A stretch of DNA of 64,000 nt from Flagellatimonas centrodinii. GTDB taxonomy: Bacteria > Pseudomonadota > Gammaproteobacteria > Nevskiales > Nevskiaceae. Shown here in pieces: positions 21,294 to 26,240 of the stretch. How positions within the stretch are numbered: the stretch's first letter is position 1; every line of letters begins with the position of its first letter. Made by a program: the position numbers and the translations under genes. The stretch covers positions 3,162,001-3,226,000 of the forward strand of contig NZ_CP092104.1 in assembly GCF_016918765.2 (NCBI RefSeq), given 5' to 3'. The notes beneath the pieces are model-generated. The model did no database searches. It was not told the origin of the DNA and saw only the letters and a list, made by a program, of their open reading frames with translations.

Positions 21294-21385
21294 GCGTGAC
21301 TCCTGCACCAAAAAAGAGCCGGGACTGTAAGGGCCTGCGCCGTCCGACTCAAGCCCGGACGAGTCTGCGTGGCACAATTCCCACC

Positions 21386-22093
21386 ATGAACACGTCGAAC
21401 GTCGACCCTGCCGAAATTCACCATTTCTCCGCCCTCGCCGACCATTGGTGGGACCCCCAGGGGGAAATGGCCACCCTCCACCACATCAACCCGGTGCGCC
21501 TCGCCTATATCGACGACGTGGCAGCCGGGGTGCGCGGCCGCCGTGCGCTCGATGTCGGCTGTGGCGGCGGCCTGCTGACCGAAGCCCTGGCAGCCGCCGG
21601 CGCCGACGCCACCGGCATCGACCTGGCGGCGCCTTCAATCGACGTCGCCCGTCGCCATGCCGTGGTTGCGGGCCTGAAGGTTGACTATCACTGTGTGGCC
21701 ACCGAAGCGTTCGCCCGTGAGGCGGCCGGCCGCTTCGAGCTGGTCTGCTGTCTTGAGATGCTGGAACACGTGCCGGACCCGGCAGCCGTGGTCAGCGCCT
21801 GCGCCACGCTGGCGGCCCCCGGCGCGACGCTGGTGTTCTCAACGCTCAACCGCAACCCCAAGGCTTTCGCCATGGCGATCGTCGGGGCCGAGTACCTGCT
21901 GGGGTTGATCCCCCGCGGCACCCATGACTTCGCCCAGTTCATCCGGCCGTCGGAGCTGGCGGAGTGGGTGCGTGCCGCCGGACTGGAGGTGGTTGGCTTG
22001 CGCGGCCTGCACTACAACCCGCTGCTGAAGACGGCTCGACTGAGCGATGACGTATCGGTGAACTACTTCCTGCATGCAAGAAAGCCGTCATGA
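21386..22093 (+). CDS. ubiG: Ubiquinone biosynthesis O-methyltransferase
   Basis: 235 aa. SAM-dependent methyltransferase performing both O-methylations of ubiquinone synthesis. N-terminal NVDPAEIHHFSALADHWWDP is the UbiG hallmark, followed by the SAM motif ALDVGCGGGLLTEALA and the TGIDLA acidic loop. The start at 21386 gives the usual N terminus; the longer open frame reads through the intergenic region. The stop overlaps the next gene's ATG (ATGA). A quinone-based respiratory chain is implied. Confidence 0.95.
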   Translation: MNTSNVDPAEIHHFSALADHWWDPQGEMATLHHINPVRLAYIDDVAAGVRGRRALDVGCGGGLLTEALAAAGADATGIDLAAPSIDVARRHAVVAGLKVDYHCVATEAFAREAAGRFELVCCLEMLEHVPDPAAVVSACATLAAPGATLVFSTLNRNPKAFAMAIVGAEYLLGLIPRGTHDFAQFIRPSELAEWVRAAGLEVVGLRGLHYNPLLKTARLSDDVSVNYFLHARKPS

Positions 22094-22737
22094 GCGCCTG
22101 GCTATTCGACCTTGACGGCACACTGGTCGACACCGCCCCCGACCTGGCCGCCGCAGCCAACCATCTGCGACGACTCGACGGTCTGTCACCGCTGCCAGTC
22201 GATCACTATCGGCCGGCCGCGTCCGGCGGCGCACGCGGACTGATCAAGGCAGGCCTGGGGCTGGCTGACGATCACCCACGTTTCCCGGCACTTCGTGATC
22301 AGTTTCTGGCGCACTACCGTGCGCACCTGGCGGATCAGTCGCGGCTGTTCGAGGGCCTGGAGCCGGTGTTGCGCTCGATGGAACAGCGCCACATTCCCTG
22401 GGGCGTGGTCACCAACAAACCGGCCTGGCTCACGGTGCCGCTGATGACGGCACTCGATCTTGCCGAGCGGGCTGCGGTCTGTGTCAGTGCCGATGAAGCT
22501 CCGGCACCCAAGCCGGCACCCGACGCCCTGCTGCTGGCATGCGCGCGTGCCAAGCTGCTGCCGGGGGAATGCCACTACGTTGGCGACGATCGTCGCGACA
22601 TCGAGGCCGGTCGTGCTGCCGGCATGCGTACCGTGGCCGTGAACTGGGGCTACACCGGCAACAACGGCGCACCCGCGAGCTGGGGTGCCGACCACCTGGT
22701 CGATCACCCCACTGATCTGCTGGCCCTGATCCGCTAG
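22090..22737 (+). CDS. HAD phosphatase, Gph/MupP type (probable MurNAc 6-phosphate phosphatase)
   Basis: 215 aa HAD-superfamily subfamily IA phosphatase. Motif I is FDLDGTLVDTAPD, motif II/III regions VVTNKP and KPAPDALLLA, motif IV GDDRRDIEAG. By sequence alone it would be named phosphoglycolate phosphatase. The ATGA overlap with ubiG is the same setting as P. aeruginosa mupP, whose product dephosphorylates N-acetylmuramic acid 6-phosphate in peptidoglycan recycling, so that function is the better guess. Substrate specificity cannot be read from motifs. Confidence 0.85.
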   Translation: MSAWLFDLDGTLVDTAPDLAAAANHLRRLDGLSPLPVDHYRPAASGGARGLIKAGLGLADDHPRFPALRDQFLAHYRAHLADQSRLFEGLEPVLRSMEQRHIPWGVVTNKPAWLTVPLMTALDLAERAAVCVSADEAPAPKPAPDALLLACARAKLLPGECHYVGDDRRDIEAGRAAGMRTVAVNWGYTGNNGAPASWGADHLVDHPTDLLALIR

Positions 22738-22865
22738 TACCGAACCCCGTCGCGGTCTGGCACCCTTGCCGCTAGCGGGTTCAGGGAACAAGGGACGAGG
22801 CTGGGGATCATGCGACCACTATTCGCCGCACCGCATTGCACCGGCGACCGCGCAGGGGCCGCGAG

Positions 22866-24482
22866 ATGAGCTCCGCACCGACGCTGGGATCACTCGAGAC
22901 GCTGTCGCGGCTGCTTCGCACCCGCGCCAACCGCCATGCCTGGATTGGCCTCGGCGTCGGCCTGTTCGCGGCCCTGGCGGCGACACTGCTGCACTGTCGC
23001 TACGAAACCGGCAGCTACACCCTCACCGGCATGCTCTGGGTTCAGAGCCAGAACCCGGCGCTGTGGCTGCTGGACCTGATGCCGCTCGCCTTCCTGCTCT
23101 GGGGCCAGTACATCGGCATGGTCATGTCTTACCAGGCTAGCGCCCTGGTGATGGATGAAACCCGCGCCCTGCGCGAACAGGCCTCGTTACTGGCGCACCA
23201 ATTGGGTGATGTCACCGACACTCACGGCCCCCGGTGTCATCTGCCGGGGCGGGGACAACTGCTGGACGGTATCCGCCAGGCGCTGATTCGTACGCCGACG
23301 GGCCAAGGCCGCCTTCAGGTCCTGGCGCTGGTCAGTGACCGCTATGCGGCGCTCGCGTACGGAGAGCGTAGCGATGGCGCCGACCGCCTCGTACAGCAGA
23401 TGGCACTTCGGTTGCGCCATGCGCTCGGGGACCACGACCTGTTGACCCACCTCGGCCACGACCGATTCGCGGTGCTCAGTCCGATGACCGGCGACGACAC
23501 CGATAGTCACCGGCTGGCCCGTCGGTTGCATTTGGCCTTCGATACCCCGGTGACCCTGGGCGATGGACCGCTCGGTGTCAGCCTCCACGTCGGCGTCGCC
23601 CACGGTCCGCGACACGGCAATCAGCCCGAGTCGCTCCTGCGCAACGCCGAGGCCGCCTGCTACCTCGCGCAGGCCCGCGGTCAGGAAACCACCGTATTCG
23701 ACCCGGAAGCCGACCAGGACGCCAGTGGCGATGCGCATCTGCTCGCCGACCTCTATGGCGCTCTCCACCACGACGGCCTGGTTGACTGCTACCAGCTGCA
23801 ACGCGGCATCCGCGGCGAACGACGCCTGCGCCAGCAGCCGCAGTGGCCGCACCCGCTTCGCGGCACCCTGAGCGCGCACCACTTCATGGACCTGCCCGCC
23901 CGCGCCACGCTTCTGCATCAGCTCACCGCCTGGCAGCTTCGGGAAGCAATGCACCGGCTCGAATCACTGCCACCCGCCTCGCGGCCGCATCTGGTCATCC
24001 GCCCCCCGGCTCGCGCCTGGGACCGACTGCCACTGGCCGACATGGTGCTGCGTCTGCTGCAGGCGCACGACCGGCCGGCTGAGCGACTGACCCTGGAGCT
24101 GCCAGTGGCGCTCCTGGTGCGCGAATCCGCTGCGCTGAAGCAGACATTGACCACACTTGCGAGCGCCGGGGTTCGTCTCGGCATGGCCGGACAGAGTCTG
24201 CTCGGCACCCTGCCGGCGGCGGCGCTGGTCTACCCGCTGCATGAGGCCCGATTGCCTTCAGTCTGGCTGCGCGAGATCGGGCGCCATGAACGCGGCGCAG
24301 CGCTTCTGGCGCAGACCTTGGCCCAGCTCCATGAACTCGGCCTCCAGGTGACGCTGGGCGGTGCAGACAGTGCCGAGTGTCTCGAGACGGCAAGCGCGCT
24401 CGGCGCCGATTACCTCGAGGGGCGTGCCATCGAACTGCCGCTGTCCCCCACCGCCGTGGCGCTGTCACTGGAGACCAACTGA
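22866..24482 (+). CDS. Membrane protein with degenerate GGDEF and EAL domains
   Basis: 538 aa from ATG 22866. Two N-terminal membrane helices (about residues 26-44 and 65-87), a short linker, a GGDEF-like domain (about 125-290) and an EAL-like domain (about 300-538). The GGDEF signature is reduced to LGHDRFAVLS, lacking the catalytic Gly-Gly-(D/E)-Glu-Phe. In the EAL part the expected E-A-L-x-R segment is absent and the distal QG motif reads LEGRAIE. Neither cyclase nor phosphodiesterase activity is expected; a c-di-GMP-sensing or scaffolding role is possible. It lies in the MupP-YciK interval, where I recall no such gene in Pseudomonas. Fold assignment is by eye. Confidence 0.7.
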   Translation: MSSAPTLGSLETLSRLLRTRANRHAWIGLGVGLFAALAATLLHCRYETGSYTLTGMLWVQSQNPALWLLDLMPLAFLLWGQYIGMVMSYQASALVMDETRALREQASLLAHQLGDVTDTHGPRCHLPGRGQLLDGIRQALIRTPTGQGRLQVLALVSDRYAALAYGERSDGADRLVQQMALRLRHALGDHDLLTHLGHDRFAVLSPMTGDDTDSHRLARRLHLAFDTPVTLGDGPLGVSLHVGVAHGPRHGNQPESLLRNAEAACYLAQARGQETTVFDPEADQDASGDAHLLADLYGALHHDGLVDCYQLQRGIRGERRLRQQPQWPHPLRGTLSAHHFMDLPARATLLHQLTAWQLREAMHRLESLPPASRPHLVIRPPARAWDRLPLADMVLRLLQAHDRPAERLTLELPVALLVRESAALKQTLTTLASAGVRLGMAGQSLLGTLPAAALVYPLHEARLPSVWLREIGRHERGAALLAQTLAQLHELGLQVTLGGADSAECLETASALGADYLEGRAIELPLSPTAVALSLETN

Positions 24483-24520
24483 CGGGTATCCTTCGCGCCC
24501 ACCCTTCGAATCCGCCGCGC

Positions 24521-25276
24521 ATGGCCCACTCCGCCCCCACCGATGCTCCACCGCTGTCCTTTGCCTCTGACCACCTCGACGGTCGGGTGATCCTGATCAC
24601 GGGCGCTGGCGATGGTCTCGGCCGGGCGCTGGCGATCGCGGCTGCCGGGCTGGGCGCACAGGTGGTGCTGCTGGGGCGGACCACCGCCAAACTGGAGGCC
24701 ACCGACGACGCGATCCGTGCTGCCGGCGGCGCCCCCGCAGCGCTGTATCCGGTCAACCTCACCGGCGCCACCTGGGGTGACCTGGCCGAGGTGGCCATGA
24801 CACTGGAAACCGAATTCGGCCGCCTCGATGGCCTGGTGCACGCCGCCGCCCATTTCAAGACCTTCACCCGCATGGAGGACGTCGAACCCAAGGACTGGCT
24901 GGAATCCCTGCAGGTCAACCTCACTGCACCGTTTGCCCTGACCCGCCACTGCCTGCCCCTGCTGCGACATTCCGGCGACGGCTCGGTGGTGTTCGTGGCC
25001 GACCAGGGCGGGCGCCGGCATAAACCGTTCCAGGGTGCCTATGGCGTCGCCAAAGCCGCCCTTGAAACCCTGAGCGCGCAATGGGCGCACGAGCAGACAG
25101 CGGACGCCCCGGTGCGGTTCAACACCTACTACCCCGGGCCGATGCGCAGCGGCGTCCGGCTGAAAGGATACCCGGGCGAGGTTCTGGACCAGGTCCCGGC
25201 GCCAGACACTGCGGTGCCCCGCCTGTTGTGGCTGCTCGGGCCGGATAGCCGCGGGATCAGCGGTCAGCAGTTCTGA
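24521..25276 (+). CDS. YciK-like short-chain dehydrogenase, catalytic Ser replaced
   Basis: 251 aa SDR. Cofactor motif TGAGDGLGRALA, NNAG-equivalent VHAAAHF, and the YxxxK pair in GAYGVAKAAL. At the catalytic Ser position, thirteen residues before the Tyr, there is Asp (VADQGGR), where E. coli YciK has Ser. Position after the ubiG-mupP pair matches the Pseudomonas yciK locus, supporting orthology. The start ATG 24521 is chosen by the N-terminal length of the family; an upstream ATG at 24377 lies inside the preceding gene. Activity is uncertain because of the replaced Ser. Confidence 0.82.
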   Translation: MAHSAPTDAPPLSFASDHLDGRVILITGAGDGLGRALAIAAAGLGAQVVLLGRTTAKLEATDDAIRAAGGAPAALYPVNLTGATWGDLAEVAMTLETEFGRLDGLVHAAAHFKTFTRMEDVEPKDWLESLQVNLTAPFALTRHCLPLLRHSGDGSVVFVADQGGRRHKPFQGAYGVAKAALETLSAQWAHEQTADAPVRFNTYYPGPMRSGVRLKGYPGEVLDQVPAPDTAVPRLLWLLGPDSRGISGQQF

Positions 25277-25292
25277 TTTTCGGTGTGACGGC

Positions 25293-26240
25293 TCAGGTTG
25301 ACGGCTTGCGCTTGCGTGAGGCGTGCCAGGGCGGCGCCTTGTTGCCACCCTTGGGTTTGCGCCCGCCAAGCGTCGGTGTCTCGTCCTGGTCGGCGCGCGC
25401 CCGCGCCTTGCGCACCGGCTTCGGTGATGCAGCAGCCTCGGGTACCACCGCTTTGCGGCCGGCACGCAGCGGCTTCGTACTGGCCAGCGCCGGGTCCAGC
25501 GAGACCGACTGCAGCAGCGCCGCGCATTCCTCGACCGTCGCCTCCCGGAAGCCGCCGGTGCGAATCCCCCGCCCCAGCACCAGCGGCCCGTAGGCCAACC
25601 GGATCAGTCGGCTGACCTGCAGGTTCTGGCTCTCGAACAGGCGTCGCACCTCACGATGTCGCCCTTCATGCAAGGTCACCGTCCACCACTGGTTGGCACT
25701 GCCCTCGCCGTCCTCACTGCTGCCCGACCGCAGCGTATCGAAACGGGCCAGATGCCCATCCATCATCACCCCGGTGCGGGTGAGCGTGTCGATCATCTCC
25801 GGCGTCAGCTCGCCCAGCACCCGCACCGCATATTCACGCGAAATCTCGAAGCTGGGGTGCATCAGCCGGCGAGCCAGCTCCCCGTGGTCGGTGAACAGCA
25901 ACAATCCGGAGGTATTGATATCGAGGCGGCCGACGGCGATCCAACGTCCGTCAGTCAGGGGGGGCAACTTGCGGAAAACGGTCTGCCGCCCCTCCGGGTC
26001 CTCACGGGTGACGATCTCGCCAACCCGCTTGCGATACAACAGCACCCGCGGCGCGGCGCGCTTGCGGGCGAGCAGGATACGGCGGCCATCGACGCGAACA
26101 TGATCATCCTCGTCGACCTTCTGACCGAGCTCTGCCGGCCGACCGTTGACCGTGATACGGCCATCAGTGATCCAGGTTTCGATCTGGCGGCGGCTGGCCA
26201 CACCGGCATCGGCTAACCGCTTTTGCAGGCGTTCGCTCAC
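25293..26240 (-). CDS. rluB: 23S rRNA pseudouridine(2605) synthase
   Basis: 315 aa RsuA/RluB-family pseudouridine synthase. An S4 RNA-binding domain occupies about residues 2-48 and the catalytic Asp is in GRLDINTSGLLLFT. RluB is favoured over RluE and RsuA because of its length, the HEGRHREVRRLFES motif and a long Lys/Arg/Pro-rich C-terminal tail of about 70 residues, and because scpB lies upstream as in other gammaproteobacteria. Its GTG start overlaps the scpB stop (GTGA). The 3' end converges on the yciK-like gene with a 16-base gap. Confidence 0.92.
   Translation of the reverse strand: MSERLQKRLADAGVASRRQIETWITDGRITVNGRPAELGQKVDEDDHVRVDGRRILLARKRAAPRVLLYRKRVGEIVTREDPEGRQTVFRKLPPLTDGRWIAVGRLDINTSGLLLFTDHGELARRLMHPSFEISREYAVRVLGELTPEMIDTLTRTGVMMDGHLARFDTLRSGSSEDGEGSANQWWTVTLHEGRHREVRRLFESQNLQVSRLIRLAYGPLVLGRGIRTGGFREATVEECAALLQSVSLDPALASTKPLRAGRKAVVPEAAASPKPVRKARARADQDETPTLGGRKPKGGNKAPPWHASRKRKPST

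Follow-up and report, generated by a model that had tools for sequence, protein, structure and literature searches.

A membrane-anchored GGDEF-EAL protein of Flagellatimonas centrodinii with both active sites degenerate, probably a non-enzymatic regulator

The window analysed here, 64,000 nucleotides of the Flagellatimonas centrodinii genome (NZ_CP092104.1, positions 3,162,001 to 3,226,000), carries between mupP and yciK the gene for a membrane protein, here called X, with a GGDEF and an EAL domain that both appear degenerate. The locus raises the question of what such a protein does once the catalytic motifs of both domains are gone. On the best reading, X is probably a non-enzymatic regulator of the GGDEF-EAL type that is anchored in the membrane and links a sensory membrane module to a partner protein.

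Gene X, its domains and its membrane module

Open reading frame analysis, Pfam and AlphaFold2 identify gene X (22866..24482, + strand) as encoding a membrane protein with a degenerate GGDEF and a degenerate EAL domain. The frame is intact and encodes 538 amino acids, with an ATG at 22866 and a stop codon that ends at 24482; a TTG located 30 bases upstream of the ATG is an alternative start. The GC content by codon position in X is similar to that of the neighbour genes. Upstream lie ubiG (21386..22093, +; NCBIfam TIGR01983, 255 bits, above the cut-off, start codon assumed) and a gene for a mupP-like HAD phosphatase (22090..22737, +; best model NCBIfam MupP, 213 bits, below the cut-off of 359). 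Downstream lies a gene for a yciK-like short-chain dehydrogenase (24521..25276, +; best NCBIfam model YciK family, 207 bits, below the cut-off of 269). A scan of positions 21300-25400 for promoters and terminators detected none.

Pfam places the GGDEF domain at residues 125-274 (23238..23687, +; E=1.1e-15, 58.3 bits against a curated cut-off of 23.8) and the EAL domain at residues 295-523 (23748..24434, +; E=2.7e-20, 73.2 bits against 31.3). Hydropathy reveals two membrane segments, at about 25-46 and 67-85, which fall inside predicted helices 7-48 and 64-113. Hydropathy and the two Pfam domains thus confirm the order that an earlier note on this DNA had traced by eye, two membrane helices followed by a GGDEF-like and an EAL-like domain. 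The AlphaFold2 model, built from X and 12 relatives, has a mean pLDDT of 78 and a pTM of 0.65. Foldseek matches it best to RmcA and MorA, in their GGDEF-EAL parts, and phmmer ranks MorA first and second and RmcA third. Alignment of the model with RmcA by VIA-align (match over 119-538) gave Z 31.4 and an rmsd of 9.8 Å over 418 residues, indicating that the GGDEF and EAL domains are placed differently in X and RmcA. Taken separately, the EAL part aligns with the BifA EAL domain (Z 28.9, rmsd 2.2 Å, 247 residues) and the GGDEF part with TpbB/YfiN (Z 24.0, rmsd 2.0 Å, 169 residues), also by VIA-align. The predicted fold matches solved GGDEF-EAL structures, the comparison that the earlier note had proposed, and X is a GGDEF-EAL dual-domain protein by descent and fold. 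Fold likeness alone is silent on function.

Residues 1-120 (22866..23225, +), delimited by hydropathy and homologues, consist of the two membrane helices, a loop of about 20 residues, and a helix that runs into the GGDEF domain. Since no Pfam family matches this part of X, it may be an undescribed input module. A search at E<=1e-5 found the module in 27 of the 85 order genomes, comprising the 17 with X described below and ten of family f6. Of 369 genomes drawn from the class, 20 have it, and in four of these it precedes HisKA-HATPase-receiver hybrid histidine kinases (4/4 proteins scanned; L059, L061, L062 and L068), a position that marks the N terminus of X as an input module. The same module also precedes intact GGDEF-EAL proteins elsewhere, with open frames of mostly 545-586 codons. 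Motifs were checked in nine of the ten f6 genomes with the module, G083 being left out. These nine relatives (L014-L020, L023 and L064) keep 17/17 of the EAL residues considered below and have the signatures GGDSF, SGDSF, GGDRF, DADRF or GGNSF, and on both counts resemble phosphodiesterases whose GGDEF domain has degenerated.

Distribution of the locus

Matches to X at E<=1e-35 were found in 25 of 85 genomes of the order. Of these, 17 have the match beside mupP and seven belong to family f6; the remaining one has a longer frame, with a match from residue 159 onward. The 17 mupP-adjacent copies, referred to as syntenic, come from the genome of X itself, 15 others of the same family and one of family f5; named relatives are Solimonas, Sinimarinibacterium, Stenotrophobium and MAGs titled Nevskiales and Nevskiaceae. 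The frame of X is intact in all 17. Both ubiG and mupP are directly upstream in 16 of 16 relatives, and yciK is downstream in 15, the f5 copy having none within the stretch examined. All 12 named loci, which overlap with the 16 relatives, have the order mtnA-mtaD-ubiG-mupP-X-yciK. The ubiG-mupP-X order is stable within the lineage.

Of 58 genomes of the family, 16 contain X, and the two other species examined of its genus lack it. Among the 42 family genomes without X, mupP and yciK share one contig in 38; the matched parts are 14-175 bp apart in 36 of these, 742 bp apart in G014 and 815 bp apart in G003, and the four remaining genomes could not be judged for spacing. The earlier note knew of no such gene in the ubiG-mupP-yciK locus, which fits these many relatives but not this lineage, where X follows mupP in 17 of 17 genomes. 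In G003 (genus g2, same family) a different gene of 273 codons lies between mupP and yciK (L106, 733-1554, +); it has several hydrophobic stretches and is, as we take it by eye, EI24/CysZ-like.

Relatives of X outside the syntenic group lie in other surroundings. Around eight f6 copies (L014-L020, L023), the nearest 1.5 kb on either side contain no match to ubiG, mupP or yciK, and none was found in the examined, mostly upstream, flanks of the intact relatives from the class. In a second family of the class, two of the three genomes examined, G428 and G451, each harbor a tandem pair of degenerate X relatives (L081, 7258-8952 and 9148-10806, +; L070 and L073). The 16-kb G428 contig that carries such copies has no ubiG or mupP match. 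The neighbourhood was considered as a clue to function, through peptidoglycan recycling or ubiquinone synthesis, and was dropped: because the slot in G003 holds another gene and the G428 contig is without ubiG and mupP, neither role is argued for X. The neighbourhood may say nothing about function. No paper naming ubiG, mupP and yciK together was found among the open-licence papers searched.

The two active sites and selection on the gene

The EAL site was judged by the 17 residues probed by mutagenesis in the phosphodiesterase ProE and described as required or contributing (PMC7290235). ProE was also considered as a relative of the wider X family and rejected, as the same paper describes it without transmembrane segments. 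X keeps three of the 17 residues, E419, G527 and Q314 in ProE numbering, the Q314 column, like that of D449, being uncertain by a residue or two. With three residues X falls well short of an active EAL phosphodiesterase. The 17 syntenic copies, X included, keep 3-6 and the four second-family copies 3-4, compared to 16-17 in 22 of 22 relatives elsewhere that have the same membrane module and an intact EAL domain. The EALxR position of X is occupied by R322-Q-Q-P-Q326. The earlier note is therefore right that the motif is lost, but the segment is not absent; it is substituted by these aligned residues. Its readings of the distal QG as EG (E518-G519) and of the GGDEF signature as LGHDRF (G197-H-D-R-F201) are both borne out. 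The metal and guanine positions of the GGDEF domain, D327 and N335 of PleD, are V156 and A164 in X, which thus lacks the signature GG(D/E)EF as well as the metal and guanine residues of an active diguanylate cyclase. Profile alignment of X to the RmcA and MorA sequences of the PDB gives the same register for the motif positions.

The proposal that both domains would be inactive is strongly supported by these residues. Some results count against the main reading. The PleD D327 column holds D in six of the 17 syntenic copies; 15 of these 17, X not among them, retain E422; and L008 retains both the QG and the EG-E motif.

The replacements at the EAL site are conserved. The EAL Glu is Arg in all 21 degenerate sequences (17 syntenic and four second-family; R322 in X), and Arg also replaces the metal-binding Asn in 19 of 21 (17/17 syntenic, 2/4 second-family; R379 in X). 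The ligands of the first metal in PA3825 are described as Glu39, Asn98, Asp130 and Asp160 (PMC5301497), so every syntenic copy has Arg in place of two ligands of this metal. All 21 sequences retain the metal Glu (ProE E419, X E411). Three further positions changed in most syntenic copies and in 4/4 second-family copies: the second Asp of DDFGTG is Gly in 16/17 (G442 in X), the catalytic Lys is Arg in 14/17 (R462), and Glu or Asp replaces the Gln of QG in 16/17 (E518). R320 is found in 17/17 syntenic and 0/4 second-family copies, and Q312, two residues off the Q314 column, is invariant in all 21 rows. The uniformity of the Glu-to-Arg and Asn-to-Arg changes suggests that the pocket was rebuilt and not left to decay. 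The former metal site appears to have been rebuilt with Arg (R322, R379, R462) beside conserved Glu (E411, E518), a set that could hold the EAL pocket together without metal. Judging from residue identity and alignment, the three Arg may pair with E411 and E518.

Loss of catalysis does not settle whether X binds c-di-GMP. The earlier note suggested that X may be a c-di-GMP receptor, and this suggestion is weakened. A receptor of the LapD or FimX kind, in which binding would rearrange the GGDEF-EAL body and the membrane helices, is a possible but unlikely reading. X has the same domain order as LapD and FimX, and the EAL model fits c-di-GMP-bound MucR (rmsd 2.1 Å over 241 residues) and FimX (2.5 Å over 240). 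LapD is reported to bind c-di-GMP with K at the EAL Glu (PMC3032553), so a basic residue is tolerated there, and CsrD of Erwinia amylovora is listed as a c-di-GMP binder (PMC10333796). The RxxD inhibitory site, five residues before the GGDEF signature, is kept in four of four second-family copies, with the signatures GNDEF, SNDEF, RDDRF and RGDRF, and in two of 17 syntenic copies. X is not one of the two; it reads GDHD there. Against a receptor, the ExLxR motif, which a review describes as determinative for c-di-GMP binding by inactive EAL domains (PMC10333796), is missing in 17/17 syntenic copies, and so is its LxR half (R-Q-Q-P-Q in X). R332 is kept in two copies and L330 in four, never both in one copy; D449 is kept in three, D450 in one and E506 in one. 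YdiV, having lost 8/10 catalytic residues, does not bind c-di-GMP according to PMC3510510. Given the absence of ExLxR and LxR from the whole syntenic group, and of RxxD from X and all but two copies, binding of c-di-GMP by X through known modes is unlikely, though X might bind it in some unusual way.

The Arg-rich pocket could instead bind another anionic ligand, such as a nucleotide, a phosphosugar or a lipid head group, of which X would be the sensor; we regard this as quite doubtful. It would account for the two clade-wide Arg at the metal site (R322 and R379), for R320 in the syntenic copies, for Arg in place of Lys at 462 and for the invariant E411. The groove of YdiV is described as holding phosphate and glycerol (PMC3510510), and the gene upstream of X encodes a sugar-phosphate phosphatase homologue. 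However, the Arg and Glu could simply pair with each other, and the linkage to mupP, seen in 17 genomes of the order, does not extend to the G428 contig. A wider form of this idea seems to us similarly doubtful: the metal site became an Arg pocket clade-wide (E to R, N to R and K to R, with E411 kept and E518 gained), and the barrel would sense an anion other than c-di-GMP, or c-di-GMP without metal, under a module shared with hybrid histidine kinases.

Selection on the gene was assessed in the syntenic relatives of X. X shares 37-43% identity with the 16 relatives, compared to 50-66% for UbiG and MupP, and its end branch in the trees is longer than any other in the syntenic group; the suggestion of the earlier note that X is fast-evolving is supported. 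For seven close pairs of syntenic relatives, which share sequences and are not independent (four are drawn from the same four copies), dN/dS by the Nei-Gojobori method was 0.065-0.27 over the gene, and 0.03-0.24, 0.045-0.37 and 0-0.41 for the GGDEF, EAL and membrane parts, respectively. An eighth pair, of intact f6 copies, gave 0.13. These values reveal purifying selection and no decay in the relatives of X, and it is to the relatives that they apply, as X is without a close relative carrying the gene. Among 12 other non-redundant syntenic copies 77 columns show no variation, and X keeps 67 of them.

Maximum-likelihood trees set the 21 degenerate sequences apart from the others by a branch with an SH-aLRT of 100; the trees flag long branches, and in one tree the outgroup is not on one side of a branch. 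Trees and counts omit rows L059, L061, L062, L066 and L068, four of which are histidine kinases. Taken alone, the syntenic group has a support of 79 in one tree and 0 in the other, so the second-family copies might lie inside it. Loss of activity is likely older than the split between the family of X and the second family, or was followed by transfer between them. A single loss is argued from two points: one branch sets all 21 rows apart, and the intact form is the general one.

It is very unlikely that X is a decaying remnant without function. Its long end branch, its deviation at ten of the 77 otherwise invariant columns and the lack of the gene in the two other examined species of the genus would fit decay. 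The frame is nevertheless intact in 17/17 copies, dN/dS is 0.07-0.27 in close relative pairs, most invariant columns are kept in X, and the loss of catalytic residues is common to another family of the class. That X retains enzymatic activity through an altered active site is scarcely credible: D stands at the fourth GGDEF position in 14/17 syntenic copies and at the third in 14/17, the D327 column is D in some, and E411 is kept in all, but N335 is N in 0/17, D327 is changed in 11/17, X included, and at most 6/17 EAL residues are kept.

A regulator without catalysis and its known counterparts

Loss of both active sites, together with selection on the gene in relatives, makes X probably a non-enzymatic regulator. 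X descends from GGDEF-EAL stock and would neither make nor break c-di-GMP any more. Its two-helix module would still respond to a signal within or close to the membrane, which the dead GGDEF-EAL body would relay by binding a partner protein. We infer this action through a partner, fed by the membrane input module, with E. coli CsrD and YdiV as the analogy; both are described as acting without c-di-GMP, on partners of another kind (PMC10333796; PMC3510510). The GGDEF and EAL domains of E. coli are reported to bind each other, degenerate ones included (PMC5635695). The partner of X could, for example, be one of the cell's own GGDEF or EAL proteins that is still active, or a target of an unrelated kind. 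The scaffold proposed in the earlier note is close to this explanation.

The genome of X has nine EAL, 15 GGDEF and two PilZ matches, which indicates that c-di-GMP signalling exists in the cell. The other eight EAL matches keep 17, 17, 17, 15, 15, 9, 10 and 1 of the 17 ProE-tested residues, the odd ones beside X being L087, L088 and the partial L090 (9, 10 and 1, respectively). The protein encoded at G000:C1:3431032-3432222 (L087, L105) is a GGDEF-EAL protein with a weak GGDEF match of 30.5 bits and 9/17 EAL residues; its EAL Glu is replaced by D and its metal Asn by K.

Dead GGDEF-EAL regulators are already a known kind, described one by one as LapD, FimX, CsrD and YdiV. The clade of X differs in that the same few metal-site replacements recur across it and relatives sharing the module keep the active site intact. 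It offers a natural before-and-after series of how a c-di-GMP turnover enzyme becomes a non-enzymatic regulator. Among the open-licence papers searched, none naming both Solimonas and c-di-GMP was found, and titles and the starts of abstracts revealed none on this clade, the replacements themselves not being searchable. Nevskiales and c-di-GMP are named together in one of these papers, which by its title concerns cpdB genes.

Like X, LapD is described as a transmembrane receptor in which both domains are dead and a basic residue occupies the position of the EAL Glu. LapD has a periplasmic output domain between its membrane helices, which would not fit into the approximately 20 residues that separate the two helices in X. 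LapD is also described as keeping an Arg just after its KVL motif and as binding c-di-GMP, unlike X, and the NCBIfam LapD model scores 22 bits on X against a cut-off of 1020. CsrD/MshH resembles X in being a regulator instead of an enzyme, with dead GGDEF and EAL domains. It is membrane-anchored, and CsrD promotes the decay of Csr small RNAs. The N terminus of CsrD is described as GAPES4-HAMP, which differs from that of X, and E. coli CsrD as keeping ExMxR, where X has R-Q-Q-P-Q; the NCBIfam CsrD model scores 13.7 bits on X against a cut-off of 663. YdiV (RflP) has reportedly lost most EAL catalytic residues and acts by binding protein, as proposed here for X; unlike X, it is an EAL-only protein and soluble. 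FimX is a dead GGDEF-EAL protein whose EAL fold is similar to that of X (Z 27.2, rmsd 2.5 Å over 240 residues). It is described as keeping Glu475 and Arg479 and binding c-di-GMP, whereas X has R322 and Q326 at these positions. The c-di-GMP contacts of FimX are given as Leu477, Arg479, Asp507, Glu654 and Tyr673 (PMC3527489); counted from the EAL Glu, the first two correspond to Q324 and Q326 of X. The GGDEF-EAL parts of RmcA (PA0575) and MorA are the best matches of X by sequence profile and predicted fold, and unlike X they have an intact EAL signature in the aligned wild-type sequences. The intact two-helix GGDEF-EAL proteins of the class genomes and of f6 share with X the membrane module and the domain order, and differ in keeping nearly all of the ProE-tested EAL residues (16-17/17 in every row), of which X keeps three.
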